Positions 29,556-58,922 of a stretch of 64,000 nucleotides of DNA are shown in pieces. Position 1 is the stretch's first letter; each line of letters begins with the position of its first letter. Under the pieces are notes generated by a model that saw only the letters and a list, made by a program, of their open reading frames with translations, had not been told where the DNA came from and did no database searches. The position numbers were made by a program, and so were the translations under genes. Source of the stretch: Rhodococcus sp. P-2 (GTDB lineage: Bacteria > Actinomycetota > Actinomycetes > Mycobacteriales > Mycobacteriaceae); NCBI RefSeq assembly GCF_016598535.1, contig NZ_CP066779.1:5454053-5518052 (forward strand), in the 5' to 3' direction.

Positions 29556-29591
29556 GAGCTTCGTTGACCCGCAATTCTTCCGGACTCGAAT

Positions 29592-32301: not shown

Positions 32302-34029
32302 ATGGCGGCAGGGCTCGGCATCAGCATCGGTTCGGCCACTCTCGTAGCTGTCACCGACGGCTCGACCGGTGAAACGCAACAGGTCCGCTTACCCAGTGCA
32401 CTGCAATTGGACGACGGATCCGTCATCACCGGATTTGTCGAGCGCGTCGGCGACCCGATTCCGATACTTGCCGCCGACGGTACCGAGTACCGTGGCGAGG
32501 CTCTCGCGGCAACAGCGGTAGGCGCGCTCGTGGGCCAGGCGGACGGCGATGAAGGGACAACCGTTGTCCTGGCTCACCCGGTGGCGTGGAACCGCCACAC
32601 AACACGCACCATGGAGTCCGCGCTGGACGATGCCGGCGTTCACGGGGCTACTCTCGTCGCCGAACCTGCGGCCGTCATGGCGTGGCTCGCCGCTTCCGGA
32701 ACTGCTGTCAACGACGGTCTGACCGTCGTCTACGACCTCGGCGCTCGCTCGCTGGACGTCACGATGATGTCCACGACCGGCGGACGGAGCGAAATCTTCG
32801 GAAAGCCACTGCGCAGCGAGGACATCGGCGGCGACGAATTCGATCACCTCGTCACCGTGCACCTGCTCGATGCGGTTTCCGACCACTTCGCAACCCTTGA
32901 TCCCTTTGCTCCCGAGACGATTGCCGCGCTGGAAACTCTGCGCGAGAATGCCCGCGCAGCCAAGGAGGAGCTTTCCACCGAGACGGAAACCGTTGCCCGA
33001 GTGGCGCTTCCCGGCGCCCTGAGCGACATCCGACTCGTCCGTTCCGAGCTCGAGGATCTGATCCGGCCCGCCCTCACCGAATCGGTGGCTTTGGTGCGTG
33101 AAAGCCTGCGATCTGCCGGCGTCGAGTCCAGTGACGTAAATCAGGTTGTTCTGGCCGGAGGAAGCTCGTCCATTCCCCTAGTCGCCGAGCTGTTGTCTGC
33201 GGAGCTTCGTGTCCCGGTGATCGCCGACGCCGATCCAGCGTCGTGCGCGGCGTCCGGCGCCGCGGCCCTCGCACTCGACGCCAGAGACTCGCACGTGCCG
33301 GCCGCCGCCACTGCAGTGATTCCCGTCGAGCCGTCGCGCAAGCCCGCACCGGTTCCCACCTTCTCCACGCCGTTGATTGCCGAGCCGACCGAAGAAGAGA
33401 ACACGGCGACTCGACGCTCGTCGAGAGTGGGTGTCGTTGCTGCAGTGGTGGGAGCATTCATCGTGCTCGCCGCAGGCGGACTCGGAATCGGAACAGCCAT
33501 GGACAAGATCAACATTCCGTCCAGTTCGGCGAACACCACCAACGAGTCCACCTCGTCCACCGCTTCGACCACACCGGACTCTACTCCCGGCAGCACCACG
33601 GCAGCCGAAGCAGCAGGCACCGGATCCACGACTGCGAACAACGGCACTCAGAACAATCAGCCCGGATCTCCCGCTGCCGCAGCGGGTTCGACGACGGCGC
33701 CAGGGGCAGTGCCGGTTGCCGGCGCACCGGCTGGATCCGCGCCCGCACCGGGCGAGACCGCTCAGTCGGCGCCTGCACCTGCCGCACCCGGCGCCCCGGC
33801 TCCCGCACCAGCCCCCGGCCCGGCACCCGCGCCCGCGCCCGCCCCGGGAGCAGGCGTCGGAACCGGTATCGGTGATGCTGCGACCGGCATCGGCAACGGA
33901 GTCGGCGGTCTGGTCGACGGCGTCGGGAACGGAGTCGGCGGCGTGGTCGGAGGCCTCGGTAACGTCGTCGGTGGTGTCGGCAACGTGGTCGGTGGTGTCG
34001 TCGGCGGCGTCACCGCGCCGATCCGCTGA
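32302..34029 (+). CDS. Hsp70-like protein with a transmembrane helix and Pro/Ala/Gly-rich outer tail
   Basis: A 575-residue protein. Residues about 1-330 resemble the Hsp70 nucleotide domain: GISIGSATLVAVTDG (phosphate 1, with Ser for the usual Asp), EPAAVMAWLA, VVYDLGARSLDVTMM near residue 143 (phosphate 2, Gly-rich loop changed), GGDEFDHLV and VVLAGGSSSIPLV near 283. The Hsp70 substrate domain is absent. A single helix at about 375-398 (VGVVAAVVGAFIVLAAGG) is followed by a Ser/Thr-, then Pro/Ala-, then Gly/Val-rich tail expected outside the membrane. It is divergent from iniB and 14 bases upstream of iniR. A sensing or scaffold role is inferred. Confidence 0.8.
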   Translation: MAAGLGISIGSATLVAVTDGSTGETQQVRLPSALQLDDGSVITGFVERVGDPIPILAADGTEYRGEALAATAVGALVGQADGDEGTTVVLAHPVAWNRHTTRTMESALDDAGVHGATLVAEPAAVMAWLAASGTAVNDGLTVVYDLGARSLDVTMMSTTGGRSEIFGKPLRSEDIGGDEFDHLVTVHLLDAVSDHFATLDPFAPETIAALETLRENARAAKEELSTETETVARVALPGALSDIRLVRSELEDLIRPALTESVALVRESLRSAGVESSDVNQVVLAGGSSSIPLVAELLSAELRVPVIADADPASCAASGAAALALDARDSHVPAAATAVIPVEPSRKPAPVPTFSTPLIAEPTEEENTATRRSSRVGVVAAVVGAFIVLAAGGLGIGTAMDKINIPSSSANTTNESTSSTASTTPDSTPGSTTAAEAAGTGSTTANNGTQNNQPGSPAAAAGSTTAPGAVPVAGAPAGSAPAPGETAQSAPAPAAPGAPAPAPAPGPAPAPAPAPGAGVGTGIGDAATGIGNGVGGLVDGVGNGVGGVVGGLGNVVGGVGNVVGGVVGGVTAPIR

Positions 34030-34043
34030 CCGGACGGCTTTCG

Positions 34044-36479
34044 ATGAACCGTGACAGCGGCGCCGAATCGTCCTACATCGCGGGACTTTTGCGCGGCATC
34101 GACCTGACTGCATCGCCACTGCGCCTGTTCGTCACCGGGACCGACGCCAGCGCTCGACCCCAAGTGACGAGAGCGGTGCGGAAGAGAATCGAATCGGGTG
34201 ACAAGCCCGTGGTCACCGCAGTCACGCTTGACGCCCCGGTCGATGCGATCGTGGTGATCGCGGACGCGCAGGCTCTGACCTCCGACGAAATCCGCGCCCT
34301 GAACGAACTGGTTCACCGTGACGACCTCGGAGTTGTCATCGCCTCCGATCGGATCGATCCTCCACTCGCACCGATCTATTCGAACATCTCGAGTTTCGGC
34401 ACCGTCCTTCATCTGAACCCGTTGAACCGATCCGACATTCGGAAGATCGCCGCAGAGCGAAGAGTTCCGCTCGACGACCGTGCCGTGCTGGCGCTCGAGC
34501 ACCTTGCCGGTGGTTCCTTCGGGGCCGTCGAAGCGTATTTCGCCGCTGCCTCGGCGGGCCGCCCGGAAATGGCGACAGCCGTACGCACACACATCCTCCA
34601 TCAGGTCACAGCTCTGCATCCGATCGAGCGGGAGATCCTCGCGGTTTCACTCGCCGTCCCGGACATCGACGCCTTCGAACTCGATCTGGGACAGGAGAAG
34701 TTCAGCCTCACAGCGGCATTCGACCGAGCACTGGCGACCGGCCTTTTCGGTTCCCGATCACCTCTCGTCGCAAGCGTGCTGGCCGAGTCGACCAGCACCG
34801 CGCGCATCCGCAGCGAGCTGATCAGAATCGTCGAATCACGCGCGCACGCGCGAACTCTCGACGTCGACACCGCGCGAAAACTTTTCGACTCCGGCATCCG
34901 CCACCGCGACCTCGCGGCCGTACTACGAGACGCAGTCGACGGCAGCACACCGGCGGTCGCGGCAGATCTCTTTCGTCGCGTGAATTCGATCGAGGCTCTC
35001 GGCCTGGCCGACACGCTTCTGTACGCCCAGGTCTCGGCTCGAAGTGGTGACCTCGACACCGCTTGCCGCCTGGCCGATTCCGTCATCGCCGAACCCGATC
35101 CCGGCAACGCGCAACTGGCGGCGGCGGTACGAATCCGCGCAGCTTCATCCGCGGCGTGCGGCCAACTCGGCGCCGCTGCAGATCTCTACACCTGGCTCGG
35201 TCCGGAGCGCACCGGAACCGAATCCCCCTTCGCCGCAATCACCTTCCTCGGCATCGGCAAGGTCGACGACGCGAACGCAGCACTGACCGGAATCACCGGA
35301 TCACCGTCGAGTTCCACGGTCGGCGCTGCGACCCTGGCCAACGGACTGATGCAGTCGGTGACGGGAGTCGCACCGACTGCGCTCAACACGATGTCGCGCG
35401 CGCTCTCGCTCCCCGGCGGAGCAGACACATCTGCATTCCAGCCGGATTCCGCCCCGGCACTGGTAGCTCTTGCACTCCTGCACAACGGCGCCCACGAACG
35501 GGCCGCCACTGTCGTCTCGGCCGCGATCGCCGCCGTCGACGCAAGCAGCCACACGTGGGCACGGCTCCACATCCTTCGCGCCTGGATCGCGATGGTCCGC
35601 GGGCAGGACGCGGTCCTCGAGGGCCTTCCGGACGAGGTGGTCCGCGGCCCCCTCCGCGAGCGCGACTCACTGTTTCTACACGCGCTGATCGTCGGCCTCG
35701 CTCGTCGCACCGGCGATCTCGCTCAGTTACGTCGAGCTTGGTCGGGCGCGGCCGGCGCCCTCTCTTCGTGCAGCGTAGATCTCTTCAATCTCCTCCCCGT
35801 CGGCGAACTGTGGCTTGCCGCAGTGCGACTCGACGAGACCGAGCAGGTCGAGCATCTGGTCGACGACGCGCGCTCGCTCCTGCGCGCACTCGGTGAGCCG
35901 CCGCTGTGGTCTTCGCCGCTTCATTGGTACGGCGTCCAGGCATCGATCCTCGCGCAGTCACCCGCCGACCTCCTTCCGCATGCGCACGCACTCGCGGAAT
36001 CAGCCAAAACCCACACGTACGCAGCCGGTTTGGCGACCGCAGGCCGCCAGTGGCTCCTCCTCCTCCAGGGCAGCGTCGACGCTGACGATGTCGAAGCCGC
36101 GGCGCGGACGCTGAGTCGGATCGGACTCCCCTGGGACGCAGCCCGCCTCGCCGGCGAAGCAGCGCTCCGCACACCGGACACCAAATCGGCGACGGCATTG
36201 CTCCACGTCGCGCGCTCGCTTCGCACAGCGTCGACGGCCGAGGCGAACGGAACCGATTCGGCCGACAATGCGGCGCCACCGTCGGTACTGACCGAGCGCG
36301 AACAAGAAGTTGCCGAACTCGTCGTCGTCGGCCTGACGTACCGGGAAATCGGCGAACGTCTCTACATCTCCGCCAAAACCGTCGAGCACCATGTCGCACG
36401 CATCAAGCGTCGCGTCGGCGCGCAGTCTCGTTCGGAACTGCTCACCATCCTTCGTAGCATGACACCAATGAACAAATAG
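34044..36479 (+). CDS. iniR: IniR-like MalT-type regulator with a LuxR DNA-binding domain
   Basis: An 811-residue STAND-type regulator. The N-terminal ATPase region is degenerate (VTGTDASARPQVT where Walker A is expected; AIVVIADAQAL as Walker B-like). A long helical, TPR-like sensor region spans residues about 250-730. The C-terminal LuxR helix-turn-helix is LTEREQEVAELVVVGLTYRE, then SAKTVEHHVARIKRRVG. Size, architecture and position next to iniBAC match mycobacterial IniR (Rv0339c), reported to activate iniBAC in response to free trehalose. It begins 14 bases after the Hsp70-like gene, so the two form an operon. Confidence 0.82.
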   Translation: MNRDSGAESSYIAGLLRGIDLTASPLRLFVTGTDASARPQVTRAVRKRIESGDKPVVTAVTLDAPVDAIVVIADAQALTSDEIRALNELVHRDDLGVVIASDRIDPPLAPIYSNISSFGTVLHLNPLNRSDIRKIAAERRVPLDDRAVLALEHLAGGSFGAVEAYFAAASAGRPEMATAVRTHILHQVTALHPIEREILAVSLAVPDIDAFELDLGQEKFSLTAAFDRALATGLFGSRSPLVASVLAESTSTARIRSELIRIVESRAHARTLDVDTARKLFDSGIRHRDLAAVLRDAVDGSTPAVAADLFRRVNSIEALGLADTLLYAQVSARSGDLDTACRLADSVIAEPDPGNAQLAAAVRIRAASSAACGQLGAAADLYTWLGPERTGTESPFAAITFLGIGKVDDANAALTGITGSPSSSTVGAATLANGLMQSVTGVAPTALNTMSRALSLPGGADTSAFQPDSAPALVALALLHNGAHERAATVVSAAIAAVDASSHTWARLHILRAWIAMVRGQDAVLEGLPDEVVRGPLRERDSLFLHALIVGLARRTGDLAQLRRAWSGAAGALSSCSVDLFNLLPVGELWLAAVRLDETEQVEHLVDDARSLLRALGEPPLWSSPLHWYGVQASILAQSPADLLPHAHALAESAKTHTYAAGLATAGRQWLLLLQGSVDADDVEAAARTLSRIGLPWDAARLAGEAALRTPDTKSATALLHVARSLRTASTAEANGTDSADNAAPPSVLTEREQEVAELVVVGLTYREIGERLYISAKTVEHHVARIKRRVGAQSRSELLTILRSMTPMNK

Positions 36480-36495
36480 TTAGCTGCATATTGTC

Positions 36496-36519
36496 CGAAC
36501 GGTTGCATTTATCCGTTCG
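36496..36519 (+). promoter_or_regulatory. Inverted repeat after iniR
   Basis: CGAACGG and CCGTTCG enclose ten bases in an AT-rich stretch 17 bases after the iniR stop and about 70 bases before the next gene. The stem is short and lacks a T-run directly after it. It may be a weak terminator or an operator for the following gene. Confidence 0.4.
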
Positions 36520-36590
36520 AGTGATAGTTTTCACAGGAATCAGGGCATACATACCGAGCAAAGTTCGGTAACTGTGAAACGGGGATCGCT

Positions 36591-37835
36591 ATGAAGTGGG
36601 GAGTCGGACTCGTCGTCGGCAACAAACAAAGCATTGCCGCGATCGCGAAACCCGACTCGGCACCAGTGATCCTCGAACGCGAATCGGTGCTGCACCACGC
36701 TCCTGACGGCACCGTGCAGCTAGGTGGAACCGCGACAGGATCCGCCGGCTTGCGGGGGTTCCTCGACAGGGTCGGAACTGACGATACCGACAACTTCTCC
36801 GAGCACATGACCCGAGGAGAGGAACTCGTAGCGACAGCGATGTATTGCCTGGTCAAGGAGGTCCGGACACTCACTGACCAGAGTCCGAACATCTCCGCGG
36901 TGATCCCGGCTGGTTGGTCGAACGATTCTGTCGCCGCGCTCCGTGACGCACTCGACAGTATGGATCTCGACGGCGTCGACCTGATTCCGGAAGAGGAAGC
37001 CTCCGCGGCTTGGCTCGCGGATCCGGAGGCCGCCGACAGAGCAGCTCGCGGAGCAGCAGCGTTGGCCGCGCCTTTCGCGATCGCCCCTACCCAACCCGAA
37101 CCCGAACCAACCGACCTGGCCGAGCCGGAGGGAGTCCCCGAGGAGTTTCCACCGTTCGTCCTGATCGAGCCGGAGCCGGAAAGTGACGCAAAGGTCCCGG
37201 TCGCGAAAGCACCGAGCGTCGACGGCTGGCTGAATCGTCAGTGGCAGTCGGAGCGCCGACCGATCATCGTCGCAGCAGTCGCCGCAGTTTTTCTGACGCT
37301 GTCGGGTTGCGCGGCAGCGCTCGTCATCGCGCACACGTCGACGGTTCCGGCGCCTCGGATTCTCGACGCACAATCTCCCTTGTCCCCCGGCACCACGCCT
37401 GACACCGCACCGAGCCCGTCCGGCGGGGCATCGCAGACAGCGACCTCGCTCCCGCCTCAGGTACCCGCGCTCGGATTACGACCGACGACGCCGTGGTCAC
37501 CCGAACCGGAATCGCTCTCGCCCGACCCCTTGCCGACATCCGAGATTCCGAGCGTCGGCGTCGAAAAATCGCCGACGGGCACCGCGACCGTGCAGCAGGG
37601 TTCGCCGATCACCGTGCAGATCCCCCCACTTCGGATCGAGAATCTACCGCCGGCCGTCGGACCGCTGGATCCGGTTACCCCGGACAACCCCACCGCGACC
37701 GACCCCACGAATACACAGTCGACGCCGACACAGCCCTCCAACCCGACCGACACAACCGATCCGGCGGCTCCGAATCCCGACATGCCCGTCATGCCCGTGG
37801 CCCCGAGACCCGGAATGCCAAGTCAGCCAGAATAA
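36591..37835 (+). CDS. Half-Hsp70-like membrane protein with a Pro/Thr-rich outer tail
   Basis: A 414-residue protein. Residues 1-150 resemble only the first lobe of an Hsp70/actin fold: MKWGVGLVVGNKQSIAAIAK, then SAVIPAGWSNDSVAALRDAL and EEEASAAWLA. The phosphate 2 and adenosine motifs are missing, so nucleotide hydrolysis is unlikely. An acidic Pro/Glu linker (PTQPEPEPTDLAEPEGVPEE) leads to one membrane helix at about 224-247, then roughly 165 residues rich in Pro, Thr and Ser outside. Same layout as the Hsp70-like genes at 32302 and 53915. GGGGA upstream could serve as ribosome binding site. Its role is unknown. Confidence 0.72.
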   Translation: MKWGVGLVVGNKQSIAAIAKPDSAPVILERESVLHHAPDGTVQLGGTATGSAGLRGFLDRVGTDDTDNFSEHMTRGEELVATAMYCLVKEVRTLTDQSPNISAVIPAGWSNDSVAALRDALDSMDLDGVDLIPEEEASAAWLADPEAADRAARGAAALAAPFAIAPTQPEPEPTDLAEPEGVPEEFPPFVLIEPEPESDAKVPVAKAPSVDGWLNRQWQSERRPIIVAAVAAVFLTLSGCAAALVIAHTSTVPAPRILDAQSPLSPGTTPDTAPSPSGGASQTATSLPPQVPALGLRPTTPWSPEPESLSPDPLPTSEIPSVGVEKSPTGTATVQQGSPITVQIPPLRIENLPPAVGPLDPVTPDNPTATDPTNTQSTPTQPSNPTDTTDPAAPNPDMPVMPVAPRPGMPSQPE

Positions 37836-37878
37836 TTCAGCTGTCCGAGCGGAGGCGCACATTCGTTGTCGGAACTTT

Positions 37879-37892
37879 TCCCCTATGGTGGG
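37879..37892 (+). promoter_or_regulatory. TCCCCTATGGTGGG box upstream of the first serine protease
   Basis: The box shares TCCCCTATGG with 32135-32144 in the iniB region. It sits 44-57 bases before the protease ATG, so TATGGT could also be a -10 element. A regulator link to iniBAC is inferred from the shared sequence alone. Confidence 0.4.
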
Positions 37893-37935
37893 TGCGGTAC
37901 CTACCGGCTCGGTGCCGGGGACTTGAAGGGATTTC

Positions 37936-39276
37936 ATGCGTAACTCGTTGGCGATCCGCACCGCTGTGGTCGGCGCCTCGGCACTACTGCTCGCAGCTCC
38001 ATTCATCACGACGGCATCGGCAGAGCCCGCCTCCGATACGCAGGTCGAACAGCTCGAAGCCGATCAGCTTCCGGCCGAGTTGGTCGAGGCGATCGCACGC
38101 GATCTGAAGATCTCTCCACAGGAGTATCTGGACCGCGCCGCCAAGGCTCAGGAACTCGGCGCATACGCCCAGGAGTTCAAGTCCGAGCGCCCTGGCGACT
38201 ATGCCGGCTCGTGGATGGGACTCGACGGTCAGCCCGTCGTAGCCGTCACCACCACCGAAGCTGCTCGCATCGCCGCCGACGACGGTTACCGCACGCACGT
38301 CGCCCCTGTCTCCGCCGACACCCTCGAGAAGACGCTGGCCGACGTCAACGGTTGGATTGCCGGGCTGCCCAAGGAAATCTCACGCGCAGTCAATTCGGCG
38401 ACGATCGACGTCTTGAACAACCAGGTCGTCATCGACGTCGCGAACAGCCCTGTCGGGCAGGCGCTCAATCTTCCGACCCTGCTCGAGAACACCAAGATCG
38501 TTCTCAGCCCGGACGGTGGCGGATCGGTCGAGCCCGGAGCGCTCGGCGGCGACACCTACATCACGTCGACTGGCCCCATTCGTGAGACGCCGACCGAGAA
38601 CATCTCGGTCTGCTCGTTCGGGTTCAACGCCGTCGACGATCAGAACAATGCTCTCAATATCAGTGCCGGACACTGCAATCCGGCCGAGGGCTCGAAGTCT
38701 CCCGTCTACCTGCCGAACCACGCGAACGTCGACGACAGTCAGTTGATCGGCGCGTTCTCACAGTCTTCCGTCGGCAACAACTCCGGCGATCTCGATTACT
38801 CGGTCATCAAGTTCGACCAGTCGGGTATCGACGCAGGCCTCGACCGCGCTGCCGTCCGCGGCGCCAACGGGACCACCCTCGCGATCACCGGAACAGCACG
38901 TCCCGTGATCGGCGCTCCCATCTGCAAGTCCGGTCAGACGTCCTCGTTCACCTGTGGCGTCGTGGCAGCCGATCGCGTCGAAACACAGCTGCTCATGGCC
39001 GACGGTGATTCACGAACCGTCCGCGGATTCGCCGGTACCGCGTGCACCCTCGCCGGGGACAGCGGCGGCGCCATCGTCTCCGGAACCTTGGCGCTGGGTA
39101 TCACCAGCGGCTCCAACAGCAGCGGCGCACCGAGTTGCAACGAGGCGAACCTGGTACTGGCAACCTCCGGTGGAACCTCGAACCTGGGTATTCCGGTCGG
39201 AGACATCCTCGATGCGGCAGATCGCGCATCCGGTGGCGGTGTCGGTTCCGGTATCCGCGTTCGCACTGCCGGTTGA
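37936..39276 (+). CDS. Secreted chymotrypsin-fold (S1) serine protease with a pro-domain
   Basis: A 446-residue preproprotein. The Sec signal peptide ends near residue 29 (TTASA|EP). A helical pro-domain follows to about residue 220. The protease domain carries the triad His246 (NISAGHC), Asp287 (GDLDYSVIKFD) and Ser376 (GDSGGAIVSG), with paired cysteines CSFGF/GHC and ICKSG/FTCGVV typical of streptogrisin / alpha-lytic relatives. The pro-domain should guide folding and be removed outside the cell. It is followed by a terminator and a second, paralogous protease gene, all on the strand of the Hsp70-like genes. Confidence 0.88.
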   Translation: MRNSLAIRTAVVGASALLLAAPFITTASAEPASDTQVEQLEADQLPAELVEAIARDLKISPQEYLDRAAKAQELGAYAQEFKSERPGDYAGSWMGLDGQPVVAVTTTEAARIAADDGYRTHVAPVSADTLEKTLADVNGWIAGLPKEISRAVNSATIDVLNNQVVIDVANSPVGQALNLPTLLENTKIVLSPDGGGSVEPGALGGDTYITSTGPIRETPTENISVCSFGFNAVDDQNNALNISAGHCNPAEGSKSPVYLPNHANVDDSQLIGAFSQSSVGNNSGDLDYSVIKFDQSGIDAGLDRAAVRGANGTTLAITGTARPVIGAPICKSGQTSSFTCGVVAADRVETQLLMADGDSRTVRGFAGTACTLAGDSGGAIVSGTLALGITSGSNSSGAPSCNEANLVLATSGGTSNLGIPVGDILDAADRASGGGVGSGIRVRTAG

Positions 39277-39295
39277 CCAACCCCTGATTCACGCT

Positions 39296-39332
39296 CTGTG
39301 CCCGCCGATCTGTTCTCGATCGGCGGGCACAG
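39296..39332 (+). terminator. Terminator after the first serine protease
   Basis: A perfect 15-bp stem CTGTGCCCGCCGATC / GATCGGCGGGCACAG with a seven-base loop begins 20 bases after the stop codon. It separates the two protease genes transcriptionally. Confidence 0.88.
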
Positions 39333-39500
39333 TGCTGTTATCGGTCGGGATCAGCGCTGTGTGCTCATGTAACGGGTGGGAATAGCGCGTTCGAACCCAT
39401 ATAGTCATGGTCGACTGTGATCGGCTCACCACAAGTCCGTGAGCCGTATCCGTGTGCTCCCAGGGGGGTGGTACGCGGTCAACGAAGTGGAAAGGCCCTC

Positions 39501-40811
39501 ATGCGAAGCTCCATCGCACGTCGTGCCGCAGTGTTCGGTTCGGCCGCGCTGCTGCTCCTCGGACCGATTACCGCGGTCGCGAACGCAGAACCGAACGAAT
39601 CCGGGGTATCCGACCAGGCAGCCCATCTGCCCGTCGAACTCGCCGACGCTCTACAGCACGACTTGGCGCTGACGCCCGACCAGTTCGTCTCGCGTTCCGA
39701 ACTCGCACAGAAGCTCGCGGAGTTCGCCGCCATCGCGCGCGTCCAGTTCCCCGACTCCTTTGCCGGCGTGTGGCTCGACGACCTCGGCAAGGGCGTCGTC
39801 GCTCTCGCTGACGGTCGCGACAAGGACGCCGCCCGCGAGGCCGCCGAAAAGGCCGGCTTCGAGGTCAAGGACGTCGCGCAGAGCGAGCAGGCTCTGCAGA
39901 GTCAGCTCTCGGCACTCAACTCGTGGCTCGATTCGCAGCCTGCCGAGGTCGCGGACCTCGTGCGTGGCATCGCCGTCGACGTGGTCGGCAACGGAGTTGC
40001 CCTCACGGCCGATCCGGCCGCCGGCATCGAATTGCCTGAGTTCCTGAAGCGGACCGTTGTGCACACCGCTGCTCCGCTGCTGGTTCCCCCGATCGTCGCG
40101 GACCTCATCCCCGCAACCGGATCCGCAACCGGCGACGCCGCACTGGGCGGAGACGCCTTCGGCGCGACCTCAGGCAACACCGGACTGCGTTGTTCATTCG
40201 GCTTCAACGGCACCGACGGTTCCGGACGCACGGTCAACATCAGCGCCGGCCACTGCGATCCCAACCGCGCCGCTGCCGGTACCTCGAATTCGAGCCAGGT
40301 CTTCCCGATGGTGAACAACCAGACCGGGCCCCGCGTCGGATACTTCGCCAAGAGCAGCTTCGACGGGCGCGACTACTCGATCATCAACATCGACGACAAC
40401 GCGAAGTACCGCTTCGAGAACAACAGCGTTCGGGTTCCGTTCAACCGTTCGGTCAACATCACCGGTACCGCCGATCCCGTAGTGGGCGCCCCGGTCTGCA
40501 AGGCCGGATCGACCACGGGCTTCAGCTGCGGCGTCGTCACCGGCGTCAACCGCGTCGCCAAGGTTTTGGATCACACCCTCGACAACGGCTTCACCACCAA
40601 TATCTGCGTCCTGCAGGGTGACAGCGGTGGTCCCATCGTCTCCGGAACGTTGGCCGTCGGCATCACGAGTGCGTCCAATGTCGCCACCTCTCCCCTGTGC
40701 GAGATCGCGCAGGCCGAGACATTGTTCGGGCAGGAAGCACCGACGCAGTATGCGACGCCGATCAACGACATCCTCGCTGCCAATCCGGGCCTGAAGGTTC
40801 GCGACTACTGA
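39501..40811 (+). CDS. Secreted chymotrypsin-fold (S1) serine protease, paralogue of the preceding gene
   Basis: A 436-residue preproprotein. ATG at 39501 with AAAGG upstream starts a signal peptide MRSSIARRAAVFGSAALLLL cut near ANA|EP. The helical pro-domain includes LPVELADALQHDLALTPDQF, parallel to LPAELVEAIARDLKISPQEY in the first protease. Catalytic residues lie in SAGHCDPN, GRDYSIINIDD and GDSGGPIVSG, and cysteines are conserved in the same places. A strong hairpin terminator follows. Targets are unknown; tandem duplication beside envelope-stress genes suggests work on surface proteins. Confidence 0.88.
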   Translation: MRSSIARRAAVFGSAALLLLGPITAVANAEPNESGVSDQAAHLPVELADALQHDLALTPDQFVSRSELAQKLAEFAAIARVQFPDSFAGVWLDDLGKGVVALADGRDKDAAREAAEKAGFEVKDVAQSEQALQSQLSALNSWLDSQPAEVADLVRGIAVDVVGNGVALTADPAAGIELPEFLKRTVVHTAAPLLVPPIVADLIPATGSATGDAALGGDAFGATSGNTGLRCSFGFNGTDGSGRTVNISAGHCDPNRAAAGTSNSSQVFPMVNNQTGPRVGYFAKSSFDGRDYSIINIDDNAKYRFENNSVRVPFNRSVNITGTADPVVGAPVCKAGSTTGFSCGVVTGVNRVAKVLDHTLDNGFTTNICVLQGDSGGPIVSGTLAVGITSASNVATSPLCEIAQAETLFGQEAPTQYATPINDILAANPGLKVRDY

Positions 40812-40835
40812 TCGCACGCATTCCCCGAGACAGCA

Positions 40836-40874
40836 AAACGGGCGCCACACCTTCTGAAGGTGTGGCGCCCGTTT
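40836..40874. terminator. Bidirectional terminator between convergent genes
   Basis: A perfect 18-bp stem AAACGGGCGCCACACCTT / AAGGTGTGGCGCCCGTTT with a three-base loop, flanked by A on one side and T on the other. It serves the protease gene on the plus strand and the secreted-protein gene on the minus strand. Confidence 0.92.
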
Positions 40875-40890
40875 CGACGTTCGTAACGTC

Positions 40891-45103: not shown

Positions 45104-45114
45104 GCGCACCACTC

Positions 45115-45149: not shown

Positions 45150-45175
45150 TTTGTCTGGAGCCCGAGGTCGGCCTG

Positions 45176-45640
45176 TCAATCTGCGACAAGCATCACCGCA
45201 CCACGCGCACCACGCGCACGCCCGACGCCCCTTTCCTGCTGCCGTCCGATGACGTAGCGCCCCGGAGCGATTCCGGTCGCGCCGTGCTCCGGATGGATGA
45301 GGTAAGCGGTCACCTGGGTGTCGAGCACGCCGAGTGCAAGGCCCCGAGCGTCTTTCACCGGTGTCGACCACACGCACTCCCCTACGTCTGCAACCAGACT
45401 GTGAGGGTTCCCGCCCGCCGCGCTTCGCAGCAGTTCCACTCCCGAGAGTGGAACGTCCACGGATCGAGTCCACGGTAAGGGCGTGACGATATTTGCGAGC
45501 AGCGAAAACGGGATCACGATGAGATCGCCCTGCGCTTGAAGACCGTCGACGACGGGAATGGACACTTCCTTGTCGAGATAGTCGAAGACGTCGAGGCCGG
45601 TGAGGGTGGTGAGAGCGGACAAGGTCATGTTCGAGTTCAT
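45176..45640 (-). CDS. Hypothetical protein, 154 residues, partner of the DUF6745-type gene
   Basis: Begins MNSNMTLSALTTLTGLDVFD at ATG 45640; a second in-frame ATG four codons later is possible. Segments such as LVADVGECVWSTPVKDARGLALGVLDTQVTAYLIHPEHGATGI suggest a soluble mixed alpha/beta domain, with a basic C-terminal tail. No family is recognised. It starts 46 bases after the stop of the upstream 392-residue gene, so both are probably co-transcribed. The open frame runs further upstream inside that gene but without support. Confidence 0.6.
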   Translation of the reverse strand: MNSNMTLSALTTLTGLDVFDYLDKEVSIPVVDGLQAQGDLIVIPFSLLANIVTPLPWTRSVDVPLSGVELLRSAAGGNPHSLVADVGECVWSTPVKDARGLALGVLDTQVTAYLIHPEHGATGIAPGRYVIGRQQERGVGRARGARGAVMLVAD

Positions 45641-45686
45641 AAGTATCACCAAGGGGTTAGAGGGTTCGAGGTTGTGTGTGTGAGGT

Positions 45687-46865: not shown

Positions 46866-46896
46866 GCGACGGTGGCGGTGTCCGCCTTTCCTGTAG

Positions 46897-47154
46897 TCAT
46901 AGTTCTACAGCGTGGCACGCAAATGCTACGGACGCAAGGGTTCCTTGAGTGTGACGCCGAGAACCGGCCACCGATCCCCACACCGAACATCCTCTCCAGC
47001 GCCGCGAAACCGGTTCGAAATCCACGACGTTCGTGGGTTCACCGGCCGCGTCACACACGGCCGACCGGTACCCACCGGTCGCACCGCCGAGGACGTGCGC
47101 TGGAACGAGAAGCTCCGCGACCAGCTCGGTGACGCGGGGTGGCAGGTCGGTCAT
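46897..47154 (-). CDS. Possible small protein, 85 residues
   Basis: Starts MTDLPPRVTELVAELLVPAH at ATG 47154 and uses GC-rich third positions for its first 55 codons, like real genes here. It begins 29 bases after the stop of the S9 peptidase on the same strand. The last third loses this codon bias, and its stop lies inside a palindrome, so the frame could be partly spurious. The interval is otherwise empty. No family is recognised. Confidence 0.4.
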   Translation of the reverse strand: MTDLPPRVTELVAELLVPAHVLGGATGGYRSAVCDAAGEPTNVVDFEPVSRRWRGCSVWGSVAGSRRHTQGTLASVAFACHAVEL

Positions 47155-47183
47155 TGCGGGCTTCGCACGCAGCCGCGGGGTTG

Positions 47184-49124
47184 TCAGCTACCGATCGCAG
47201 GCTTCCACAGCTCCAGCGTCGGGATGTCTGGTGGGGTGAACCCGAGTACCTGCCCGTAGAAGGACAACTCGGCGTTGCGTGAGCTGATGATGGTCGACTG
47301 CTTACGGAATCCGTGCGATTCACCCTCGTAGGCCAGGTAGGCGTGCGGAATACCCTTGGCCACCAGTGCATCCCGGAATCGTTCCGCCTGCGAGGGCGGC
47401 ACGATCGGATCGTCGAGGCCCTGGAGCAACAACACCGGGCAGTTCAACCCGTCGACGTTGTTGAGCGGAGCACGTTCGGCGTACAGGTCGGCAGATTCCG
47501 GCAGTGGACCGATCAACCCGTCGACGTAGCGCGACTCGAAATCGTGAGTTTCCTGCACGAACAGGTCCAGTTCTGCCACCCCGAAATAGGAAGCACCACA
47601 GGCGAACACGTCGGACGTGGTCAGTGCGGCCAGAACAGTCCATCCGCCGGCAGACCCACCCTCGATGGCGAGGCGGGCCGGATCTGCGAGCCCCTGCTCG
47701 GCCAATCCGGTGACTGCGGTGACGACATCCTGCACGTCGACGACACCCCACTGACCGCGCAATCGATTACGGTACTCACGTCCGTAACCGGTCGACCCGC
47801 CGTAATTCACATCCACCACTCCGATTCCGCGGCTGGTGAAGAAGGCGTAGACGAGGTTGAGGGCCGGTGCGACGTGCGCCGTCGGGCCGCCGTGAACAAA
47901 CGCGACGTACGGCGGCAGTTCGCCGTCGAGTCCTTTGTATCGCGGACTGCGCGGCGGATACGCAACGGCGTGAACTTCTCGCCCGTGTCCGTGAGCCACG
48001 ACTGCTCGCGCTTCCGGAAGATATGCAGACTCGGGCAATTCTTCGACCGACGAACGGATTTCGGTCAGTTTTCCGGTACCGAGGTCCAGTTCACGTAGCG
48101 CGCCCGCCAGTTTCGCGCCTCCCGAGACGAGCAGCAACCGGTCGCCGCGAACCTGCATGAGGCCGATACTGGTGACCCCGGGGATCTCGATGTCGCGTAG
48201 TTCTCCCGACGCGGGATCGAGCACCCCCAGGGTGTCGGTTCCCACGGTGCGCGCGGTGAGAAGGTGGCCGTTGTCGAGTTCGACGAACCAGCGCGCACCG
48301 AAACGCCACTGTGGCCCACCGAAATCCGCCTCCACCGGGCAGATCGGGGTGATCTCGGCGCCGACGCGATAGATGTTCCACCAGCCGCTGCGATCGCTGA
48401 TTGCGAAAAGTTCGTCGTCGGTGATCCACTCCGGTTGCAGGACCGACTCTTCGGGTCCGCCGATCAGTACGGAGTAGTCCTGAGCGACGCCGTCGACTAG
48501 TGGAGCTACGCGCAGTTCGGTACCGTCCCAGGGCATTTGCGGATGGTTCCACGCGATCCAGGCGATCTTGGTTCCACTCGGCGAAAGCCTCGGTGACGAA
48601 AGGAAGTCCGAACCGCCGACGATCGAGCGGATCTCGCCGGAACCGTCCAGCGGAATCGCGCAGATATCGCGAGTGATCGCCCCGTCCTCCGCGTGCGCTT
48701 CCCGAACCGCCCACACCTCACCGTTCACGATCTGCAGGTCTGCGTATCGCAACGCGGCCGGCGACGCCGGTTCGGGCGTAAGAGCCCGCGGAGTGACTCC
48801 TTCGAGGATGTACACCCGTTGATCGGAGAATTCACTGAAGACCAGTTTTCCGGACTCCGTGACAGTCCAGGCGCCACCGCCGTACTCGTGAACCCTCGTC
48901 CGCGCGTTCCACGGCGCCGGGAGGATGTCGACTGGTTGGTTGTCGAGACCGGATCGACGAATCGACGTCCGACCACTCTCGGTCGGACGAATTTCAGCCC
49001 ACCAGATCTCGTCGCCGACGTATCGTCCGCCCTCGACAGGGTGGCCACCTGCAGCCAGATCAGCTGCTCCGATCGGAGAAGTCCACGATCCGTACGGGGC
49101 TGCAATCTGCTCGCTGGGGGTCAT
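47184..49124 (-). CDS. S9-family prolyl oligopeptidase-like serine peptidase
   Basis: A 646-residue two-domain peptidase. Residues about 1-390 form a beta-propeller of WD-like repeats that filters substrates. The C-terminal alpha/beta hydrolase holds the nucleophile in EGGSAGGWT, the acid in LLQGLDDPIVPPSQAE and the base in YEGESHGF. It probably cleaves short peptides or acylated amino acids in the cytoplasm, since no signal peptide is present. ATG at 49124 is chosen; the upstream extension has poor composition. Divergent from the aminotransferase gene across 76 bases. Confidence 0.9.
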   Translation of the reverse strand: MTPSEQIAAPYGSWTSPIGAADLAAGGHPVEGGRYVGDEIWWAEIRPTESGRTSIRRSGLDNQPVDILPAPWNARTRVHEYGGGAWTVTESGKLVFSEFSDQRVYILEGVTPRALTPEPASPAALRYADLQIVNGEVWAVREAHAEDGAITRDICAIPLDGSGEIRSIVGGSDFLSSPRLSPSGTKIAWIAWNHPQMPWDGTELRVAPLVDGVAQDYSVLIGGPEESVLQPEWITDDELFAISDRSGWWNIYRVGAEITPICPVEADFGGPQWRFGARWFVELDNGHLLTARTVGTDTLGVLDPASGELRDIEIPGVTSIGLMQVRGDRLLLVSGGAKLAGALRELDLGTGKLTEIRSSVEELPESAYLPEARAVVAHGHGREVHAVAYPPRSPRYKGLDGELPPYVAFVHGGPTAHVAPALNLVYAFFTSRGIGVVDVNYGGSTGYGREYRNRLRGQWGVVDVQDVVTAVTGLAEQGLADPARLAIEGGSAGGWTVLAALTTSDVFACGASYFGVAELDLFVQETHDFESRYVDGLIGPLPESADLYAERAPLNNVDGLNCPVLLLQGLDDPIVPPSQAERFRDALVAKGIPHAYLAYEGESHGFRKQSTIISSRNAELSFYGQVLGFTPPDIPTLELWKPAIGS

Positions 49125-49200
49125 CGCTCGACAATAGCCAACTGGTCGCGCGACACGGTCCCCGACAATGCACTTGCACAGTGGTGGAATCATGTAACTC

Positions 49201-50454
49201 GTGAGCACACCAGAACCCGTCCGCCACCGTCAGCCGCAGCGCGAGCTGGAGCAGTCGTCGAAGCTCCAGAACGTCCTGTACGAAATCCGTGGACCGGTGC
49301 ACGCGCATGCCGCCCGGCTGGAGGCGGAAGGGCACCGGATCCTCAAGCTCAACATCGGCAACCCGGCACCGTTCGGATTCGATGCCCCCGACGTGATCAT
49401 GCGGGACATGATCGCTGCGCTGCCCTATGCGCAGGGCTATTCGGAGTCGAAGGGCATTCTGTCGGCGCGGCGCGCAATCGTGACGCGCTACGAACTGGTT
49501 CCCGGCTTCCCCGAGCTCGACGTAGACGACATCTACCTCGGCAACGGTGTCTCAGAGCTGATCACGATGACCATGCAGGCCCTCCTCAACAACGGCGACG
49601 AGGTGCTGATCCCGGCACCGGACTATCCGCTGTGGACCGCGATGACGAGCCTGTCCGGCGGTACACCCGTCCACTACCTCTGCGACGAGGCAAACGACTG
49701 GAATCCCGATATCGCCGATATCGAATCCAAGATCACCGACAAGACCAAGGCTCTCCTCGTCATCAACCCGAACAACCCCACGGGTGCGGTGTACTCGATG
49801 GAGGTTCTGCAGCAGTTGGTCGATCTGGCGCGCAAGCATCAGCTCCTGCTCCTCGCCGACGAGATCTACGACAAGATCCTCTACGACGACGCAAAGCACA
49901 TCTCGCTGGCGACGCTCGCCCCTGATCTGCTGTGCCTGACGTTCAACGGCCTCTCGAAGGCCTATCGTGTCGCGGGCTACCGCTCCGGCTGGGTCGCGAT
50001 CACCGGGCCGAAGGATCATGCGGCCGGGTTCCTCGAGGGTCTCGATCTCTTGGCTTCGACGCGGCTGTGCCCCAACGTCCCCGGACAGCACGCCATTCAG
50101 GTGGCCCTCGGTGGACACCAGAGCATCGAAGACCTGATCCTGCCCGGCGGCCGTCTTCTCGAGCAGCGCGACGTCGCTTGGGAGAGACTGAACATGATTC
50201 CGGGCGTTTCGTGTGTCAAACCACGCGGCGCGCTCTACGCCTTCCCTCGTCTGGATCCGAACGTCTACGAGATCCACGACGACGAGAAATTGGTGCAAGA
50301 CCTGCTTCTCCAGGAGAAGATCCTGATGGTTCAGGGCACCGGGTTCAATTGGCCCAATCACGATCACCTTCGGATCGTCACGCTCCCGTGGGCCCGAGAT
50401 CTTGCCGTCGCCATCGAGCGATTCGGCAACTTCCTCACCAGTTACAAACAGTAG
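49201..50454 (+). CDS. alaA: PLP-dependent alanine/aspartate-type aminotransferase (AlaA-like)
   Basis: A 417-residue fold-type I aminotransferase, very similar along its length to E. coli AlaA: KLNIGNPAPFGFDAPD, ILYDDAKHISLATLAPDLL and PGVSCVKPRGALYAFP. Lys253 in NGLSKAYRVAGYR should bind pyridoxal phosphate, and VINPNNPTGAVYS contacts the cofactor. It makes alanine from pyruvate and glutamate. The start is a GTG at 49201. The mycobacterial counterpart (Rv0337c, often called aspC) is also beside etfD. A strong terminator follows. Confidence 0.92.
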   Translation: MSTPEPVRHRQPQRELEQSSKLQNVLYEIRGPVHAHAARLEAEGHRILKLNIGNPAPFGFDAPDVIMRDMIAALPYAQGYSESKGILSARRAIVTRYELVPGFPELDVDDIYLGNGVSELITMTMQALLNNGDEVLIPAPDYPLWTAMTSLSGGTPVHYLCDEANDWNPDIADIESKITDKTKALLVINPNNPTGAVYSMEVLQQLVDLARKHQLLLLADEIYDKILYDDAKHISLATLAPDLLCLTFNGLSKAYRVAGYRSGWVAITGPKDHAAGFLEGLDLLASTRLCPNVPGQHAIQVALGGHQSIEDLILPGGRLLEQRDVAWERLNMIPGVSCVKPRGALYAFPRLDPNVYEIHDDEKLVQDLLLQEKILMVQGTGFNWPNHDHLRIVTLPWARDLAVAIERFGNFLTSYKQ

Positions 50455-50499
50455 ATTCTCCGGCTGAATCCGGCTGAAATCGAGTAAACAACTCGTTGT

Positions 50500-50537
50500 A
50501 CAAATGCCCCGTAAACGTAAAACGACGGGGCATTTGT
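50500..50537 (+). terminator. Terminator after alaA
   Basis: A perfect 13-bp stem ACAAATGCCCCGT / ACGGGGCATTTGT with a 12-base A-rich loop, beginning 46 bases after the stop codon. Confidence 0.9.
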
Positions 50538-50699
50538 GCGACCTTGGTCACATTTTTCGCAAACCACACGGTTTGATTGACACTTTAACTATTTAGTGAC
50601 CTGCCCTGATGTGAAAACGGTCCAACCGGTACGTGATTCGTTGCGGAATTGGTAGTTGGACAACGCGCCAAATCGGTTTGAAATTGGGTACATTAGTTA

Positions 50700-50800
50700 T
50701 CAGCACTTCGGTGCCGCGAGCACCTGGTATCCCTCCCCCCCCTGTGGATACCAGGTTGGTGGCGGGGACAACCCCCCCTGTTCCCCGCCACCCAGCTCGA
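50700..50800 (+). ncRNA. 6C small RNA (B11-type)
   Basis: Two adjacent perfect 11-bp hairpins have C-rich loops of equal size. Stem 1 is 50722-50732 / 50746-50756 with a 13-base loop holding eight C. Stem 2 is 50758-50768 / 50782-50792 with a 13-base loop holding seven C. Both loops end CTGT. A small UUCG-capped hairpin (GCACTTCGGTGC, 50703-50714) precedes them, and TACATT at 50689-50694 may be the -10. The 6C RNA of actinobacteria (B11 in M. tuberculosis) is defined by exactly this pair of C-loop stem-loops; the loops can pair with G-rich mRNA sites. RNA ends are estimates. Confidence 0.88.
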
Positions 50801-50831
50801 CCAATCTCCGTTTCACACCCCTCATCGGTAG

Positions 50832-50904
50832 CACCGGTTTTCACGGGCACTGCCTTTCGTCGGCACCGCCTTTCACCGACACTGCCTTCCAACACTGCCT
50901 TCAG
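50832..50904 (+). repeat. Degenerate 16-bp tandem repeat downstream of the 6C RNA
   Basis: Five units start at 50832, 50848, 50864, 50880 and 50893. The first three are 16 bases, the fourth 13. The shared core is CACYGCCTTTC (CACCGGTTTTC in unit 1). The array lies between the 6C RNA and the promoter of the YibE/F gene. No function is known. Confidence 0.75.
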
Positions 50905-50907
50905 AAG

Positions 50908-50949
50908 CTGACCATTCGCTTCGGAGCCGATAACATTGCACCGGTGCAA
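50908..50949 (+). promoter_or_regulatory. Promoter and operator of the YibE/F gene
   Basis: CTGACC (50908-50913), a 17-base spacer and TAACAT (50931-50936) make a plausible promoter. A perfect 14-bp palindrome TTGCACCGGTGCAA (50936-50949) overlaps the expected transcription start, 27 bases before the ATG. A repressor bound there would block initiation. The regulator is unknown. Confidence 0.6.
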
Positions 50950-50975
50950 ATCCCCAGTCCGACACTCAGTTTCCG

Positions 50976-52238
50976 ATGAGTCACGGCCACGGCCACGGTG
51001 GACCCATTCAGATCGGCCCCACCGCCTCACGCGTCGTGATCGGCTTGCTCGTCGTCATCGGCATGATCGTCGTCGCGGCAGCAATCGCACTGTGGCCGGA
51101 CAAGAACACCATCCCCGTCCCACTCCCTTTTCAGAATGCCGACGGCAGCTCGGTGGAAACCGAGGCGGGCACGGTCACCATGCAAGACCTCGGCGACTGC
51201 GGGAGTTCCTCCGCTGGAAGGGTATTCGTCGGCGCCCCGCAACCGCCGCCCACGTCGGCCTATCAATGCCAGCGGAGCATCGTCGACATCGAATCCGGGC
51301 CGAATGCCGGAACCAAGACACTGCTCGAGGTCATCCCGGGCGCCGGTCAACCGGATCTACGAGTCGGTGACCACATTCGTCTCGTGCGTCAGACGGACCC
51401 GAACGGCAATACTCAGTACTCCTTCGAGGACTATTCGCGTGGACTCCCGCTGGCACTGATCGCCTTGGCGTTTGCCGTAGTCATCATCGCTGTTGCGCGG
51501 TGGCGCGGATTGCGCGCTCTCGTCGGACTGGTGATCGCATTCGGCGTTGTCGTCGGATTCCTCCTGCCCGCCTTGCTCGACGGCAAGCCTGCGATACCGG
51601 TTGCACTGGTCGCCGGCGCGGTGATCTTGTACGCGGTTCTCTATCTGGCGCACGGTGTCTCACTCAAAACCAGTTCGGCATTGCTCGGCACCCTCGCCGC
51701 GATGGTGCTCGCGGCGGTTCTCTCCTATCTCTGTATCGAACTGACCCATCTCACCGGGTTGTCCGAAGAGCAGAACACCAATGTGCAGACATACATCGAA
51801 CACATCGACATCACGGGCCTGCTGCTGGCGGGCTTCATCATCGGATCGCTCGGTGTTCTCAACGACGTCACCATCACCCAGGCATCTTCGGCATTCGAGT
51901 TGGCCGAACTCGACAAGCACGCTCCTCGCCGAAAGGTGTTCAGTGGGGCGATGCGGGTCGGACGCGATCACATCGCCAGCACTGTCTACACCTTGGTCCT
52001 CGCGTACGCCGGCGGGGCGCTGCCACTGCTGTTGCTTTTCAGTGTCAGCGGGCGCCCACTCCAAGACGTGTTGGTCGGTGACGCCGTCGCGATCGAAATC
52101 GTCCGGTCCGCGGTCGGCGGAATTGCTCTGGCTCTTTCGGTTCCGCTCACCACCGCAATCGCCGTCATTCTCGCGCGCCCGCCCGGTAGTGCGATCAAGA
52201 CCGGCCCCACGTCAGGTGGACGCCACTCCAAACGCTGA
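50976..52238 (+). CDS. YibE/F-like multi-pass membrane protein
   Basis: A 420-residue protein. It has a His/Gly-rich start (MSHGHGHGGP), one helix, an extracytoplasmic domain of about 110 residues with a C-x-C-like pair (DLGDCGSS, YQCQRS), then about seven helices. The segment ITGLLLAGFIIGSLGVLNDVTITQASS is the hallmark of the YibE/F family. The family's function is unsettled; transport has been proposed. No Shine-Dalgarno sequence is visible. Its 3' end faces the third Hsp70-like gene, nine bases apart. Confidence 0.88.
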   Translation: MSHGHGHGGPIQIGPTASRVVIGLLVVIGMIVVAAAIALWPDKNTIPVPLPFQNADGSSVETEAGTVTMQDLGDCGSSSAGRVFVGAPQPPPTSAYQCQRSIVDIESGPNAGTKTLLEVIPGAGQPDLRVGDHIRLVRQTDPNGNTQYSFEDYSRGLPLALIALAFAVVIIAVARWRGLRALVGLVIAFGVVVGFLLPALLDGKPAIPVALVAGAVILYAVLYLAHGVSLKTSSALLGTLAAMVLAAVLSYLCIELTHLTGLSEEQNTNVQTYIEHIDITGLLLAGFIIGSLGVLNDVTITQASSAFELAELDKHAPRRKVFSGAMRVGRDHIASTVYTLVLAYAGGALPLLLLFSVSGRPLQDVLVGDAVAIEIVRSAVGGIALALSVPLTTAIAVILARPPGSAIKTGPTSGGRHSKR

Positions 52239-52247
52239 CACCGGGTT

Positions 52248-53915
52248 TCAGAGTCCGGGGATCGGCGGGAGGACCGGCAACAGAATCGGCGGCAGCCCCG
52301 GAATGTAGATCGCGGGCGGCGGAGGTGCGGGTGCAGGCGCCGGCGGCACATAGGTGTCCTGCACAACCGGCGGGGCCTCGACCACCGGTGGCGCTTCCTC
52401 CGTCGTGGGCGGGGGCGGGGTCGTCGTGGGCGGGGGCGGCGGAGTCGTCGTGGTAGTCGGTGCCGTCGTGGTCACCTCGGTTGCCACAGGTCCGGCTTCG
52501 TCGGAATCACCGAAGACCTTTCCGCCATAGCCCAACCCCAACCCGACGATGACGACTGCCGCGATCACACCGGCGCCCAGGCCGGCGAAACGCAGCGGAT
52601 TCCTCGGTTCCGTGGACGTGGTTTCCGCAGTCTGTGTACCGGCAAGCCACGACGGGTGCGCGGTTCCTGCTCCTACTCCCTCGTCTTCGCGCACCGCCGA
52701 GTACGCCTGGGCGTCAACCATCACGGCCTCGGTGTCGGCGTCACGTTCTGTGCCGAATCCGTCCGTGGCCGGGTCGCTGACGGCGACCGCGAGATCTGCG
52801 GCCGGATCGAATCGTTGCTCGTGTCGGTTCGGTCGCGGCTGCGGCAGGTCCGCAGCATACGGACTCGACATCTGTTCCTGTGGAACAGACTTCGTCTCGG
52901 CAGCGCCCTCCGGCCGTTCCGATTCGGGGAGCGTAGCGACTCCTCCATGACTGAACGCCTGTACCGGGACAGGCACCTCAGCCGGTGTGTGAATCGGATA
53001 GGGCGCGAAGATCGGTGCCACAGCAGGGACCTGGACCGGTGCAGCGACAGGTCGTGACGACGGCGCCAGGGACGACTCCGCGATCAGTGCAGCGCCTTGC
53101 GCAGCCACCAGTTCAGGCTGTTCTGGCGCGATGACGGGGCAATCCAGCCACGCAGCGAGCGTCGCCCGCACGATCGGGATGCGCGCACCGCCACCGATGA
53201 GGACAATCGCGTCCGGGTTACGGCCGGACGTTGCGATGACCTCCCGTATTTCTCGGGCAAAGGCCTCCACCGACGTGATGACCAACGAATCGAAAACTTC
53301 CCGCGACAGCAGGAGAAGCCCACCGGGACCGGGCAGGCACACCGCGCTCCGTGTGGACAGTTGTTCCTTGGCAAGTCGGCATCGCGACTGCAGTTCGGAG
53401 TCGCCGCCCGGGTCGGCCGGCGTCGAGATTCGGCGGCGTACGGTCTGGTCGGAGTAAACGAGGTCGTCGAAGTGGTCGCCGCTGATCCGAGTCGACCGAG
53501 CAGTCACGACGGTAGACCTCGAATGCCTGTCCACAACGCTGATCGTCGATCCCGAGCTACCCATGTCGACGACGACAAGCGTGCTCTGGTCGGTCAGCGC
53601 ACCGGGTTCCTCGAGCATCCGAAGCGTGGCTGTAACTTCGGGAATCAACTCGAAGTTGCCGATGCCTTTCTGCTCGAACGCGGCCTGGAGTGCACCGGCT
53701 TGCGCTTGATCGCGGTAGGCGACGACCGTATGACTGCCAACGCCGACATTCTCGGCCAATGCCACCTTCGTTGCTTCTGCGGCGATTTCCTCGGGAACGT
53801 CGCGTCCGCGATCGACCGCTCTTGATCGAAATACCGGACCACGGTGGTCGGGCGTCCCCGGGCGCGCCAAACGCACAGCGCTGGCTCCCACCGTCACACC
53901 CAATACCAAGTTCAT
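52248..53915 (-). CDS. Hsp70-like protein with a transmembrane helix and Pro/Thr-rich outer tail
   Basis: A 555-residue protein. Residues 1-290 resemble an Hsp70 nucleotide domain: MNLVLGVTVGASAVRLARPG (phosphate 1, acidic residue missing), LVVVDMGSSGSTISVVDRH (phosphate 2), SGDHFDDLV and AIVLIGGGARIPIVRATLA (adenosine). No peptide-binding domain follows; instead there is a long acidic linker, a helix near 438-460 (GLGAGVIAAVVIVGLGLGYG) and a tail of Thr and Pro runs ending PPILLPVLPPIPGL. Same architecture as the genes at 32302 and 36591, so these are three related membrane proteins in one window. CCCCTAGTGGG lies about 70 bases upstream. Confidence 0.8.
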   Translation of the reverse strand: MNLVLGVTVGASAVRLARPGTPDHRGPVFRSRAVDRGRDVPEEIAAEATKVALAENVGVGSHTVVAYRDQAQAGALQAAFEQKGIGNFELIPEVTATLRMLEEPGALTDQSTLVVVDMGSSGSTISVVDRHSRSTVVTARSTRISGDHFDDLVYSDQTVRRRISTPADPGGDSELQSRCRLAKEQLSTRSAVCLPGPGGLLLLSREVFDSLVITSVEAFAREIREVIATSGRNPDAIVLIGGGARIPIVRATLAAWLDCPVIAPEQPELVAAQGAALIAESSLAPSSRPVAAPVQVPAVAPIFAPYPIHTPAEVPVPVQAFSHGGVATLPESERPEGAAETKSVPQEQMSSPYAADLPQPRPNRHEQRFDPAADLAVAVSDPATDGFGTERDADTEAVMVDAQAYSAVREDEGVGAGTAHPSWLAGTQTAETTSTEPRNPLRFAGLGAGVIAAVVIVGLGLGYGGKVFGDSDEAGPVATEVTTTAPTTTTTPPPPPTTTPPPPTTEEAPPVVEAPPVVQDTYVPPAPAPAPPPPAIYIPGLPPILLPVLPPIPGL

Positions 53916-58869: not shown

Positions 58870-58922
58870 GGTGCTCGATCTACTTTCTCGAGAGTGTGTG
58901 AAGTGTTGATGGGATGGGAAAT

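Follow-up and report, generated by a model that had tools for sequence, protein, structure and literature searches.

A degenerate Hsp70-like gene linked to iniR across Mycobacteriales as a candidate partner of the IniR regulator

The window analysed, a stretch of 64,000 nucleotides of Rhodococcus sp. P-2 (contig NZ_CP066779.1, positions 5,454,053 to 5,518,052), carries the iniBAC genes and, divergent from them, a gene here called H1, which encodes a degenerate Hsp70-type nucleotide-binding domain, a membrane helix and an outer tail, and which is directly followed by iniR, the gene of a MalT-like STAND regulator. According to our best explanation, to which a probability of roughly 0.55 is given, H1 and IniR would constitute a dedicated two-protein regulatory unit expressed from one operon, and that H1 is a partner of IniR is considered likely. 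The explanation is built on the gene order, close spacing, co-occurrence, fold, residue losses, selection and conserved boxes observed at the following features.

32302..34029, plus strand: H1, the IniR-linked gene, with an Hsp70-like nucleotide-binding domain (residues 1-333), linker, single membrane helix and outer tail
32302..33300, plus strand: H1 Hsp70-type domain, with two complete lobes and Ser in place of the phosphate-1 Asp
33433..33489, plus strand: H1 membrane helix (residues 378-396), predicted, with a charge difference across the helix in the family
33490..34026, plus strand: H1 outer tail, rich in Pro/Ala/Thr/Gly; ratio of non-synonymous to synonymous substitution rates (dN/dS) 0.07-0.13 against three near relatives
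34044..36479, plus strand: iniR, MalT-like STAND regulator, starting 14 nt past the H1 stop
31968..32301, no strand: divergent region between iniB and H1
32161..32194, plus strand: probable IniR operator, two copies of TTAGGGGATnnnCCCC, 18 bp apart
29679..31967, minus strand: iniB, with an IniB N-terminal domain above cut-off
27687..29618, minus strand: iniA, dynamin-type GTPase
26206..27690, minus strand: iniC, dynamin-type GTPase

Linkage of H1 to iniR and the region between iniB and H1

In the window, iniC-iniA-iniB (minus strand) are followed by H1, iniR, a second Hsp70-like gene (H2) and two trypsin-like protease genes (plus strand), an order which bears out an earlier sequence-only reading in that two such genes flank iniR and H1 is divergent from iniBAC. 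IniR, 91-92% identical to the proteins of Rhodococcus qingshengii and Rhodococcus sp. IEGM 1409, which puts the window in that Rhodococcus group, was assigned by its nearly full-length similarity to the curated NCBIfam family NF038181, its LuxR-type DNA-binding end and its position beside iniBAC; its score lies below the curated cut-off (468 vs 750 bits), which is exceeded in 6/151 genomes of the window's family, the group f1 that we take to be GTDB's Mycobacteriaceae. Just 3' of iniR, two loci have another IniR-like frame, shorter than the first (L075, from 11345; L080, from 2809).

The linkage was followed in these 151 genomes, 80 of them with IniR by cut-off, from which 79 neighbourhoods were taken, together with 80 named ones, the best 80 of 407 confirmed relatives and weighted to near kin. 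The named set includes three loci from other families (L182, L186, L194), the family members named among the loci being Rhodococcus, Nocardia, Mycobacterium, Williamsia and others. Two of the 160 stretches had no IniR frame above 80 bits, and the merging of identical IniR reduced the other 158 to 142 distinct loci. Immediately upstream of iniR and on the same strand, H1 is found in 123 of them, iniB* in 6 and no recognised gene in 13; as 12 of these 13 have just 0-424 nt to the contig edge, H1 is upstream in 123/130 informative loci. The other one, L113, has 8.8 kb upstream of iniR in a different layout, with no recognised gene there. In most loci H1 is oriented divergently from iniBAC. Moreover, IniR was present (E 1e-30) in 61/200 genomes of an order-level scan, 43 of them outside the family, and in these 43 an H1-like gene lies within the stretch in 40 and upstream on the same strand in 39. 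Conserved linkage to iniR was the test that the sequence-only reading had set itself in advance, and H1 came through it, its linkage extending across the order.

The two genes are also closely spaced: from H1 stop to iniR start there are 14 nt in the window and a median of 3 nt (96/137 loci), and in 28/40 other-family loci the genes overlap by 4 nt, the gap values not being meaningful for L224, L241, L245 and L250, among these 40, and for L247. In the 151 family genomes H1 and IniR occur together in 75, IniR only in 5, H1 only in 4 and neither in 67 (cut-offs of about 1e-30 for IniR and about 1e-60 for H1, the latter so chosen because true DnaK scores about 1e-42), although relatedness makes any p-value on this co-occurrence generous. 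Of the five genomes with IniR only, four have iniR where the contig ends, and a weak H1 is present in the other, G011.

The region between iniB and H1 holds what is probably the IniR operator. A word-pair count over the iniB-H1 gaps surfaced TAGGGGAT. TAGGG[GA] is present in 115/115 distinct gaps (mean of 27 in shuffles), TTAGGG[GA] in 100/115 (13/2,300 equal-length windows from the same loci), and two copies of the latter not more than 40 bp apart, mainly spaced by 15 or 18 bp, in 66/115 (7/2,300 control windows), with 180/186 of the TTAGGG[GA] sites facing H1. In other families, TTAGGG[GA] is found in 38/39 gaps and two TTAGGG no more than 40 bp apart in 30/39, vs 0/780 control windows in both cases, and at six loci without an adjacent H1 such sites also precede iniB and iniB*/iniR. 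The TTAGGGG copies at 32161 and 32179 are the only ones in the window, and the 32161-32194 site is the only exact match to the 16-base pattern genome-wide; with up to two mismatches there are 29 genome matches vs 38 for the control, such weak matches being meaningless. Because of the place and conservation of these boxes, IniR would be expected to bind them, the tandem TTAGGGGATnnnCCCC being its probable operator. The MalT box also begins with GGGGA. In the text of PMC5760070, 'palindrom', 'consensus' and 'binding site' are absent and 'motif' stands only in a reference title, and for 'TTAGGGG' in the mycobacterial literature no title on iniB was among the matches listed.

The H1 protein: fold, catalytic residues and membrane form

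H1 has the two-lobed Hsp70 nucleotide-binding fold, Ssz1 (5mb9, 6sr6) being among its structure matches, and past about residue 333 it has no Hsp70 substrate-binding domain or lid, but a linker, the helix and a low-complexity tail. By eye no universal short motif was apparent in the H1 linkers, which vary by lineage, and an Rv0340 family match on H1 (E 0.002) was discarded as too weak. The fold, as well as the true dnaK and dnaJ present in the same window, would suit a chaperone relative which aids the folding of IniR or IniB and has no signalling role, but the missing substrate-binding domain and the altered catalytic residues leave this account distinctly improbable.

The catalytic residues of Hsp70 are D8, K70 and D194 in DnaK numbering. 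In the window's family, D8 (the phosphate-1 Asp) is represented by D or E in 3/119 H1, Lys is not among the six commonest residues at the K70 position, and D194 (the phosphate-2 Asp) is kept in 117/119; in other families, the phosphate-1 Asp is kept in 39/44 H1 and the phosphate-2 Asp in 10/44. The adenosine-motif glycines are present in 119/119 and 118/119 within the family and in 35/44 in other families (9 not aligned). Both GIDxGTT and DLGGGTFD are intact in the lineage closest to the DnaK root (L182, L194, L239, L247), where helix and tail are also found. Since the adenosine motif stays while different branches lose different hydrolysis residues, nucleotide binding by H1 may, on one reading, matter more than hydrolysis.

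This pattern would also suit a special case of the preferred explanation, one which names the signal: ATP on the degenerate H1 domain would license IniR at the ATP surge that follows cell-wall inhibition. The activity of the iniBAC promoter does track ATP, as stated in the available part of PMC6104191. Nevertheless, those data come from Bacillus Calmette-Guérin (BCG), M. bovis being reported with iniB* between iniR and iniBAC (PMC5760070, in the part available), and the authors of PMC6104191 proposed IniR's own ATPase domain as the sensor; an ATP gauge in H1 is considered unlikely.

The helix is predicted in 119/120 distinct family H1 genes, with a positively charged inner side, and the predicted topology has the layout of a single-pass sensor, namely inner domain, one helix and outer part. 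In the other-family H1 scored (n=32, nine weaker ones being left out), a helix after the domain is missing from 21, stands at the very end in 4, and is accompanied by a long tail in 7. On a quick DnaK-rooted tree comprising 41 H1 domains, helix and tail are ancestral and were lost once, in the branch with L217, L227, L186, L241, L243 and L233, the end helix of L233 being counted as no tail; support was given only by the Shimodaira-Hasegawa-like approximate likelihood ratio test (SH-aLRT), with values of 84-95 near the root; given these values and the long branch of DnaK, the polarity is not certain. With helix and tail ancestral an original membrane role is therefore favoured, and the membrane form of H1 was probably the original one, the gene pair surviving its loss. 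That helix and tail were a Mycobacteriaceae addition is opposed by the same DnaK-rooted tree, on which the ancestral form undergoes a single change.

By a loose pattern, 45/122 H1 tails hold Gly/Val-rich stretches, somewhat like IniB. IniB-like repeats at the tail end were discarded as a general feature, being found in some lineages only, the mycobacterial tails being Thr/Pro-rich. These stretches, the divergence of H1 from iniBAC in most loci and the H1-like gene that adjoins iniC in several mycobacteria would agree with H1 serving the effectors, that is, anchoring or organising the dynamin-like IniA/IniC or IniB at the membrane and being made with IniR since both are needed under envelope stress. 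However, it is with iniR, often by a 4-nt overlap, and not with iniBAC that H1 is closely spaced, and helix-less forms exist, so that we see little likelihood in an effector role.

In a comparison with L089, a near relative, the H1 domain has a dN/dS of 0.14, and the H1 tail and IniR each have 0.13, the tail values being rough because low-complexity tails align poorly.

H2, H3 and neighbouring genes

36591..37835, plus strand: H2, an Hsp70 remnant consisting of lobe I only, with a membrane helix (37263-37319) and a P/T-rich tail
37936-39276 and 39417-40811, plus strand: two trypsin-like protease genes, downstream of H2
52248..53915, minus strand: H3, of a separate Hsp70-like membrane subfamily, adjoining yibE/F and a UDP-glucose/GDP-mannose dehydrogenase, outside the IniR module

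The sequence-only reading had described three Hsp70-like proteins with helix and tail, all of them wall sensors acting on IniR or on IniA/IniC. H1, with its full two-lobed domain, answers to the description, and a relay to IniR is plausible for it, given the order-wide linkage and the ancestral helix and tail. H2 does not have the two-lobed fold; it is absent from the maps of L094 and L116, save for a 43-residue fragment in L094, and shortened in L096 and L117, a PHROGs search with it gave a single match at E 0.32, and its dN/dS against L089 (0.30 for the domain, 0.58 for the tail) indicates that it is under weaker selection than H1. We propose that H2 is a later duplicate which retained just lobe I. 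H3 starts 15.8 kb past iniR, in another neighbourhood, and at least 11 sampled genomes that lack IniR have a relative of it (E <1e-50). At 52248-59007 it adjoins polysaccharide-type genes, including two UDP-glucose/GDP-mannose dehydrogenases and a Wzz-type protein with an AAA domain, and in 20 H3 loci with short flanks (window included) a sugar-nucleotide dehydrogenase is adjacent in 10 and yibE/F in 10. A set of three sensors would draw on the near-constant helix of the family H1, its ancestral place on the quick tree and the purifying selection on the H1 tail among near relatives; set against H3 without IniR, H2 lost or shortened in kin, and no helix after the domain in most other-family H1 scored, it becomes a very unlikely arrangement.

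A fourth degenerate Hsp70-like gene, 34% identical to the H3 query, was seen in L240 from base 8397 (about 901636-902286 of C1 in its own genome). Full-length H1 paralogues stand directly 3' of iniR in Mycobacterium-type loci (L037, 11381-13144; L137, 5781-7001), and on another quick tree, likewise with SH-aLRT support only, these arose independently of the Rhodococcus downstream copies. Loci of Rhodococcus and Nocardia commonly have trypsin-like proteases following iniR; in the mapped loci of Mycobacterium none was recognised. The proteases tend to occur with H2-like genes; among 123 loci, 45 have both protease and H2-like gene, 12 only the H2-like gene, 11 only the protease and 55 neither, figures which kinship inflates, and the proteases were not retained as a part of the system.

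Proposed mechanism and comparison with known systems

In the proposed mechanism, H1 has kept the adenosine pocket but only some of the hydrolysis site and nothing of the chaperone half, and most likely binds nucleotide, hydrolysing it slowly or not at all. It would bind IniR directly and either hold it inactive or license it, the precedent being the action of MalK (at the membrane), MalY and Aes on the IniR-like MalT, and in the membrane form its helix and outer tail would keep the complex at the inner membrane. The contact between H1 and IniR would change with the state of the envelope, or with the rise in ATP upon cell-wall inhibition, and IniR would then activate iniBAC via the TTAGGGGAT boxes between iniB and H1; in one branch of the order, the loss of the helix would have made H1 soluble. 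We infer IniR binding, nucleotide binding, the sign of the control and the signal from the sequences, and a closely coupled, conserved, degenerate Hsp70 fits, by analogy, a holder or licenser of IniR. Holding, that is, negative control, is given only just less than an even chance; in the available part of PMC5760070, IniR overproduction is sufficient for induction, which fits a titratable holder. As to the signal, trehalose binding by IniR is left open by its authors in that part, and ATP has been proposed by others (PMC6104191, part available).

In a wider and more tentative view, held at somewhat less than even odds, a STAND transcription factor could here be gated by a dedicated Hsp70-fold pseudo-ATPase, the two forming an ancient order-wide signalling pair; the pseudo-ATPase would originally have been a membrane sensor with an outer tail, later soluble in one branch, and duplicated and halved (H2) in Rhodococcus/Nocardia relatives. 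No Hsp70-STAND pair of this kind was found in the open-access literature searched.

Several observations weigh against a dedicated H1-IniR unit. At six distinct loci (five Mycobacterium, one of genus group g29) iniB* replaces H1, so that adjacency of H1 to iniR is not strictly required; in five of them an H1-like gene adjoins iniC, the sixth contig being too short to tell. As reported in the part available of PMC5760070, iniB* separates iniR from iniBAC in M. tuberculosis, M. bovis and M. smegmatis, and IniR functions in M. tuberculosis and M. marinum. H1-like genes are commoner than IniR, both in Mycobacterium (114/118 vs 81/118 genomes) and in the order (102/200, at E 1e-45, vs the 61/200 with IniR), so the wider H1 family must have other roles. 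Moreover, none of the loci examined had an H1-IniR fusion, and the helix-less other-family H1 (21/32) still precede iniR, the tail therefore not being needed for the pair's retention.

Kept across the order as a pair with IniR, which switches on the response to envelope damage, H1 may be a missing part of the path by which the damage signal reaches the regulator, and together with the predicted operator it makes this route directly testable. It is also a clear example of an Hsp70 relative lacking the chaperone half, with branch-specific catalytic losses and a constant gene neighbour. In the open-access literature searched, no account of H1 was found beyond one sentence on an M. smegmatis gene in the available part of PMC5760070; that gene has the same neighbourhood and is probably the downstream H1 paralogue of several Mycobacterium loci, and its anchor, tail, spacing and wider conservation are not described in that part.

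As regards known systems, MalK holds MalT, a STAND regulator with the domain layout of IniR, at the membrane, and MalY and Aes do so in the cytosol (PMC10427625, part available), although these partners are a transporter ATP-binding subunit, a pyridoxal phosphate enzyme and an esterase, none of them an Hsp70 relative. An Hsp70 protein controlling a transcription regulator through binding is found in DnaK, the co-repressor of HspR in Streptomyces and mycobacteria (PMC10415612, part available). DnaK, however, is a full chaperone, whereas H1 is here a degenerate nucleotide-binding domain with a membrane anchor. Ssz1 of the ribosome-associated complex, which is among the fold matches of H1, binds ATP without hydrolysing it, and it differs from H1 in being ribosome-associated and in retaining the substrate-binding domain.
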